Origin: Planctomycetia bacterium
GTDB lineage: Bacteria; Planctomycetota; Planctomycetia; Pirellulales; PALSA-1355
Reading direction: 5' to 3'
Length of the DNA stretch: 37,485 nt
Assembly: GCA_016200205.1 (NCBI GenBank)
Contig: JACQFF010000219.1
Coordinates: 1-37,485 of the forward strand
Shown here: positions 8,665 through 11,019 of the stretch, piece after piece
Layout: every line of letters starts with the position of its first letter
Position numbering within the stretch: position 1 is the stretch's first letter
Program-made: the position numbers and the translations under genes
The notes under the pieces: generated by a model
The model's database searches: none
What the model saw: the letters and a program-made list of their open reading frames with translations, nothing else
What the model was told of the DNA's origin: nothing

Positions 8665-11019
8665 TTATGACTTGGGTTTCCTGATCGCGCCTTCGACCGG
8701 GCTCTTTGCGCCTTCGGTGTATTTCGCACCGATCAATTCATACGTCTTCTCCGCGCGCGCTTTGAGCTTTTTCAGTGCCTCCGCAAAATCCTCCTCTTCG
8801 AAATCCTCGTCGCAAAACGAGCAGCAGCTTTCGAAAGTCAGACCGAAACGCTTCCACTGCGTCATTCCTCCCGGAGTGATCTCGTCGGTCACGGGGCACC
8901 AAATCGTGCTCATGGCCTGCACGAAGTTGTTGATGAATCGCTGCTTTTCGGCGGCCTTGGCATACTTGTCCGGGTCTTTGAGAAATTTCTCTCTGGCGTC
9001 GGGCTTGCTGCCGCGATACTTCACGCTCTTGTACTCCCACGTGGGAAGTTTCGGGTCAGACGGTTCGAGATAGACGGGGCACAGATCAAGCGATTTCTGT
9101 GCCTCGGGAATTTTCACTTTTTCCAGGATCACCGCGTCCGGTGGCAATTGAGCCAGCGCCGGAATCGCCTGGACAACTAGAAGTCCAAGCAGGATTCGCA
9201 GATGTCCGATCTTTCCGCTCGCTTTGTCAAAAGCGCGAAACACGTTGGCGCCGCCACCGGCGCGGCCGCCACGGCCGCCGGCGCCCTGTCCGGCAAACAG
9301 CAAGGTCTTCGTCAAAAGCGGACCGCCGCCGCCGCTGCCCAACGAACCCACGTCCTTGCCGACGATTTCGCTGATCTGCTTTCGCGGGCCGTCGCCGTGG
9401 GCAATCATCCAGGCGTGATCGCCCGTGTTGAGATTGATCGCGGTGATGCGTCCGTAAGGCGGCTTGAACAGCGGAAAGCCACGTGGACCCTCCGGGCCGG
9501 CAGCGAAGGCCGGACCGCCGCGCACGTAATCGAAGTTGGATCGCGCCGCGTCGGGCTTGTTGAGTTTGACGATGATCGGCGCGGTGAGCGACGGGATGTA
9601 GAACAATCCGGTTTCAGGATCGAACGCCGCGCCCCACCAGTTGCCACCGCCGGCCCAGCCCGGCAAATTGAGCGTCCCCTTCTCGGTCGGAGGAGTGAAG
9701 AGCGGACCGTGGTCAAATTTTTCCAAAATCTGCAGGCCTTCCGATCGCAGCTCGGGCGTAAAGTCAATCAGGTTCTCTTCCGTCGCGCCTTGCCGTTCGA
9801 ACGGCGCCGGTTTAGTCGGAAACGGTTGAGTCGGCGAGGTGCGCTCGCCGGGCACTTTGGATTGTGGTACGGGGCGTTCCTCAATCGGCCAGACGGACTT
9901 CCCGTTCGTGCGGTCGAAAACAAAAGTAAATCCAGTCTTCGTGATTTGCGCCACGGCCTTGATCGCGCGGCCATCGACCTTGATGTTGCACAGCACGGGC
10001 GCGGCGGGCAGGTCGTAATCCCACAAACCGTGATGCACGCTCTGAAAATGCCAGACTCGCTTGCCCGTCGTCGCGTCCACGCATACCAGCGCTTCGCCAA
10101 ACAGGCCGTCGCCGAGACGATGACCGCCGTACCAATCGTTGGTGGGCGTGCCGAATGGCAGGTAGACGTAGCCCAGTTCCTCGTCCGCGCTCATCAGCGT
10201 CCAGACGTTGGTGTTGCCACTGTATTTCCACGATTCATTCTCCCAGGTCTCGACGCCGAATTCGCCCTCTTGTGGAACCGAGTGGAAAATCCAGGCCGGT
10301 TTGCCGGTCCGCGCGTCGAAGGCTTGAATGTCGCCGCGCGGGGCTTCTTTGTTCTGCGGACCATCGGAGATCGAAGAGCCGACGATGACCCTGTTGCGGC
10401 AGATCACCGGCGGCGACGTCATCGTGTAATTGCGGGCGCTGACCGCCAGCGGAATTGCTTTCGTCAGGTTCACCTTGCCGCCCTCGCCGAACTCGGACAC
10501 GGCTTTTCCGGTCTTGGCGTCAATTGCCCACAGATGCGCGTCGTGTGTGGCGATATACAAACGCTCCTGCCCGCCGTCGGTCCAATACGCCACGCCGCGA
10601 TGCACGAAGCCGAGGTTCGTAGGGCGTCCGGCCTTGTAGCTTTCGGGATTGAACACCCACTTCGTCGCGCCGGTCTGTGCGTCGATCGCCGCAACCTGCG
10701 CCAGCGAAGTGCTGGCGTACAGCGTGCCGCCGATCATCAGCGGAGTATTCTCGTAGGCGAACGAGCCCAGCGCGCGATTGTCTTTTTGCAGCGGCAGGTC
10801 GGGCGAATCCCACGACCAGGCGATTTTGAGCGTGCCGACATTATCCGTGTTGATCTGATCGAGCGGCGCATATTTCGTGCTGCCCGCATCGCCGCCGTAA
10901 TAGCGCCATTCGCCGTTGGTGATCCCTTGCTGACCGTAAGCAAATTGCGCACCCACGGTCGTGATGACGGCGAAGATTAGGGAGACGAAAAGCGGAACGA
11001 ACGCAAATTTCGCAGTCAT
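8665..11019 (-). CDS. Secreted PQQ-dependent dehydrogenase fused in frame to a truncated-start secreted Cys-rich protein
   Basis: The 784-residue product has two unlike parts. Residues 1-29 are a signal peptide. Residues 30-603 form the beta-propeller of a quinoprotein glucose-dehydrogenase-like enzyme, which oxidises sugars or alcohols outside the cytoplasm. It has [44 protein letters not shown] and [18 protein letters not shown]. The propeller stops abruptly at [10 protein letters not shown]. The usual ending (a PAGGQATPMTY-like segment and more) is missing. From 604 the chain becomes a second signal-peptide-like segment ([19 protein letters not shown]) and then a Cys-containing domain with [11 protein letters not shown] and [12 protein letters not shown], perhaps YHS-like. 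I infer an in-frame deletion joining two genes, or an assembly error, at about 9210. The ATG at 11019 has GGAG seven bases upstream. Confidence 0.85.

Follow-up and report, generated by a model that had tools for sequence, protein, structure and literature searches.

A single frame of 784 codons, with no internal stop, runs along the minus strand from 11019 down to 8665 of the window (the whole stretch analysed here, 37,485 nt of contig JACQFF010000219.1 from a Planctomycetia bacterium of the order Pirellulales). Its product would begin as a secreted PQQ dehydrogenase and end as another protein, with a signal-peptide-like segment in between. The question raised by this locus is whether the frame encodes a new kind of protein or whether two neighbouring genes were joined by accident. 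An earlier note, made from the letters of the sequence, had favoured the second answer and proposed that a deletion had removed the end of one gene together with the start codon of the next. The parts of the frame are the following.

8665 to 11019, minus strand: the fused ORF, 784 amino acids plus stop, open throughout
10933 to 11019, minus strand: N-terminal signal peptide of the dehydrogenase, about residues 1-29, placed by hydropathy
9211 to 10932, minus strand: PQQ dehydrogenase propeller, residues 30-603, without the last 40-42 residues of relatives; defined by the PF01011 match, by 71-79% identity to relatives and by the relatives' tails
9202 to 9213, minus strand: putative deletion joint, from codon 603 (AAG) to about codon 606, placed by the limits of both similarities
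9151 to 9201, minus strand: former signal peptide of the second gene, residues 607-623, start codon lost; assigned by alignment with intact second genes and by hydropathy
8668 to 9150, minus strand: mature second protein, residues 624-784, secreted, cysteine-containing and weakly YHS-like

The first half belongs to the PQQ propellers, since it scores 627 bits against PF01011 for a curated cut-off of 26.7 (E 3.7e-188). The match covers residues 38-603 and profile positions 1-569 of 595, so that the propeller stops short of its C-terminal closing strands, whereas the intact dehydrogenases of four relatives cover the whole profile (1-595). Similarity to these proteins ends at K603/I604, window 9208-9211; I604 can be assigned to either gene and is followed by G and H and then by the hydrophobic stretch. 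The end of the propeller at residue 603 had thus been placed correctly from the letters, but the missing part had been overestimated: instead of 60-100 residues, the tails of relatives run 40-42 residues beyond this point, with a conserved GKQYI, and then reach their stop. The score against TIGR03074, the membrane-bound glucose/quinate type, is 388 bits for a cut-off of 832.65, and the dehydrogenase falls under the NCBIfam cut-offs of both the membrane glucose-type and the alcohol-type subfamilies. Residues 38-603 resemble the propellers of PQQ alcohol and glucose dehydrogenases (PF01011; solved structures 8gy2_A, 1kv9 and 1kb0), from which the window's chain differs by the absence of the closing strands and of a haem domain.

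What the missing tail contributes was judged from a model of the intact dehydrogenase of G001, the sole other genome of the genus. In the PDB, this model is closest to PQQ alcohol dehydrogenases. Mean pLDDT is low, 58, but confidence is comparatively good over the last 45 residues (block pLDDT 74-87), and the stretch lost in the window holds four predicted strands, at 604-610, 619-623, 626-633 and 637-642. A ring-shaped propeller deprived of four closing strands should fail to fold stably and would not give an active enzyme, so the fused dehydrogenase is probably dead. A compensating paralogue is ruled out, no second copy of either half being found elsewhere in the window's own genome. As for the cofactor, a search of 12 genomes gave no PqqC match and no PqqE above cut-off, with the PqqC control also silent everywhere.

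The second half starts with a segment that no longer stands at the beginning of a chain. Residues 6-22 form the most hydrophobic stretch of the whole product (mean hydropathy 2.45), as befits the dehydrogenase signal peptide. Residues 607-623 reach 2.09, within the 1.7-2.3 of the signal peptides of relatives' second genes, with which they align, and they retain a hydrophobic core and an AXA-type site before Q624 (ALA-Q); the internal signal-like segment is therefore real. The second genes of relatives possess a start codon and a signal peptide of their own (that of G001 opens MASRRLVLALGLLLSFAVRASAQLPADAVML). Separate Pirellulales copies such as L032:9953-10513 and L031:9950-10501 are 72-82% identical to residues 624-784, carry the same cysteines and begin, with their own start and signal peptide, 15 nt to ~1 kb past the dehydrogenase stop. 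Since each half thus matches a different separate gene, at 71-79% and 72-82% identity, the composition of the frame is not due to chance.

Alignment of ten family members shows conserved CPVY, WCPVT and ESCCxFCDE motifs. The domain had been described as Cys-rich: the conserved CPV, WCPVT and CCSFC are present in the window's copy, but 'rich' overstates five cysteines in ~160 residues. Neither Pfam nor NCBIfam gave a match for the window's C-terminal segment. YHS (PF04945) matched weakly in 6 of the 10 family members, the best with an E-value of 0.0082, short of significance, and the window's copy had no such match. Strand-strand-helix order is alike in YHS/TRASH modules and in residues 51-90 of the segment (block pLDDT 70-86); by contrast with a standard YHS domain, the present family is exported and has the pattern CPV / WCPVT / CCxFC. 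The model of the second protein has a mean pLDDT of 49.8, its alignment of 10 sequences being too shallow, and in the PDB the family profile found only short matches, to one segment of adenylate kinase 9 (E 0.0009) and to a ciliary protein (E 0.013). The family appears to be uncharacterised. In an adenylyl cyclase of mycobacteria, copper is sensed by a YHS/TRASH module (PF04945; PMC4626032). From the cysteines and the conserved neighbourhood described below, our guess is that the second protein may serve the dehydrogenase as a metal- or redox-binding partner. A literature search for PQQ dehydrogenase, YHS protein and Planctomycetes together found no paper joining the three. In one genome, G046, an extra partial copy of the C-terminal part of the second gene lies ~1.2 kb past the full copy (L042:8735-9070; 53% identity over 47 residues).

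Comparison of the locus in relatives, which the earlier note had suggested as a check, gave a clear picture. Several related genomes returned two separate matches for the one window protein, and their DNA reads as a dehydrogenase, a stop and then a gene with its own start. This arrangement, in the same order and on the same strand, is present in all ten relatives in which both genes are fully readable: G001, G002 (of the same family), G021, G023, G037, G046, G055, G064, G065 and a contig filed as Chloracidobacterium UBA7656. An eleventh locus, L038, labelled Acidobacteria, has the same layout with a run of N in its dehydrogenase gene. The twelfth, L039, is a contig of 3.3 kb with a Hyphomicrobiales label; here the second gene is cut by the contig end, and the 2.95 kb before it hold no dehydrogenase. 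The second gene therefore lies directly downstream of one clade of PQQ dehydrogenases in 11 of the 12 loci besides the window's. By record labels, the family is found mostly in Planctomycetes, in the Pirellulales; members at 73-77% identity also occur on contigs labelled Hyphomicrobiales (L039, JAJFHQ010000079.1), Chloracidobacterium (L036, DLHY01000125.1) and Acidobacteria (L038, JAJVID010000206.1), which suggests either gene transfer or mis-binned contigs. The dehydrogenase does not strictly require its neighbour, since G003 and G004 have the former and lack the latter.

A relative with the same fused architecture would have spoken against an accident. None came up in the samples of the class and of the order; the 397 class genomes, 43 of them with a dehydrogenase match, gave no fused copy. 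Open frames of 848-1124 in some relatives looked fusion-like, but the DNA has a stop between the genes in each. We therefore reject the idea that fusion is the normal form of these proteins.

The size of the lost segment can be estimated from spacing. From residue 604 to residue 607 the distance is 181 nt in G001 but 6 nt in the window; from residue 604 to residue 609 it is 168 nt in G002 but 12 nt in the window. About 155-175 bp would thus be missing if the ancestral gap was like theirs, and this is an estimate only, since the loci taken together show intergenic gaps of anything between 15 nt and ~1 kb. No in-frame ATG, GTG or TTG is present between codon 600 and TTG 625. No repeat brackets the joint either; a direct repeat matching at 13 of 14 nt (9222/9307) sits to one side of it, and repeat collapse is rejected as the cause. 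A deletion of this size would have taken away the last 40-42 dehydrogenase codons with their stop, the short gap and the codon at which the second gene begins, and the two coding parts would have met in the same frame by luck, at roughly one chance in three. Deprived of its own start, the second protein would be presented for export solely as an appendage of a dead enzyme; what was once its signal peptide would no longer work as a normal signal but would either serve as a stop-transfer segment or slip through. Separate genes in every intact relative, the position of the joint and the nature of the missing parts lead us to read the locus as a recent pseudogene fusion, made by deletion of the adjoining ends of two neighbouring genes, with a probability of about 0.7. 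The origin put forward in the earlier note is thus supported.

Could the fused chain be in use all the same? A single exported chain might work as a two-domain protein or be cut at the internal signal site, and selection would keep it if the cysteine domain completed or capped the propeller, or if a cut chain delivered both neighbours together. The frame is indeed open across the joint with both halves conserved, the internal segment has kept both a hydrophobic core and the ALA-Q site, and the two products may cooperate, given the conserved neighbourhood of their genes. An internal signal peptide in a bacterial polyprotein has a precedent in cytochrome b/c1 of Bradyrhizobium, on which the present assessment does not lean. 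However, the dehydrogenase part lacks four closing strands found in all relatives, and no other genome carries the fused form. Topology is a further obstacle: in Sec export, a signal that emerges in an already exporting chain sits the wrong way for signal peptidase. Here export would already have been started by the dehydrogenase signal peptide, the second signal would enter the translocon the other way round, and normal cleavage into two secreted proteins would be unlikely. Of the two fates that had been envisaged for the product, dead or processed into two proteins, the first therefore fits the loss of four predicted strands and the second is disfavoured. We consider a functional fusion very improbable, and its retention by selection through either of these benefits equally so. 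Somewhat less remote, though still improbable, is that the dehydrogenase is lost while the second gene is translated alone from a non-standard start, for instance CTG 607 behind AGCGGAAAG; such a scenario would be one form of the deletion reading and compatible with it. CTG 607 sits 9 nt past GGAAAG and would give a signal peptide of near-normal length, and the second half is undecayed. Against this, no ATG, GTG or TTG stands ahead of the conserved part, CTG starts are rare, and the site would be a chance product of the deletion.

Divergence bears on the age of the event. Neither half shows faster evolution or loss of conserved residues. End branches are 0.19 in the window versus 0.25 in G001 for the dehydrogenase, and 0.26 versus 0.28 for the second gene; otherwise invariant columns are changed at 8 of 298 versus 12 of 302, and at 2 of 82 versus 4 of 84, respectively. 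Divergence from G001 at the three codon positions (0.20/0.14/0.44 for the dehydrogenase, 0.19/0.09/0.54 for the second gene) has, in both halves, the pattern of a protein under constraint. An old pseudogene is rejected on this ground. The measured divergence would be largely older than the deletion, which leaves three options, a recent deletion, an erroneous assembly or a product still in use; undecayed halves do not tell them apart.

Undecayed halves are just what an artefact would give, and an assembly error is the most serious competitor: the cells may keep two intact genes, the assembler having dropped ~160 bp or joined a minority variant. We hold this to be unlikely, though well worth keeping in mind, since the genome is a draft of 328 contigs, the single assembly for the species, and two deletion-like loci lie within 4 kb on one contig. 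On the other hand, the joint is in frame and has no bracketing repeat. The housekeeping genes examined in the window are full length by Pfam, and 48 ORFs with a close counterpart, a small sample from 41 contigs of this genome, some trimmed at 20 kb, contain neither an in-frame deletion in their interior nor, on the side of this genome, another fusion.

The other deletion-like locus is a relic of an amidohydrolase (Amidohydro_2) of ~55 codons at 6890-7060 on the plus strand, ~1.6 kb from the fused ORF. At 6890-7054, residues 2-16 run in frame directly into residues 155-195, counted on the 279-residue protein of relatives; the last ~85 codons are gone, and an epimerase leader follows, with the epimerase gene starting at 7081. 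Relatives have a complete frame of 279-327 residues, and the relic is the sole copy in the genome. The G001 homologue, at a contig end and with a frame break, is neutral as to whether the loss is shared. A second relic with a clean joint nearby favours real gene erosion, though both stand on one draft contig. On balance, the deletion is likely to be real and present in the cells.

Elsewhere in the window, a LivG-type ABC transporter ATPase of 440 amino acids (21084-22406, plus strand) carries, between Walker A and the Q-loop (TFQN), an insert of ~190 amino acids with two hydrophobic segments. Of 57 related genomes, 15 share this insert at 34-64% identity, and the frames that carry it there measure 430-845 amino acids. 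The protein is a conserved variant of this ATPase, possibly anchored in the membrane.

The fused frame is, in the end, no new kind of protein but a gene broken in this one genome, or else a slip of the assembly. This calls for caution, because automatic annotation would give a two-domain PQQ dehydrogenase of 784 amino acids, which, as the relatives indicate, is no normal architecture. The more useful by-product is the secreted cysteine-containing family itself, a testable partner for the adjacent PQQ dehydrogenase.
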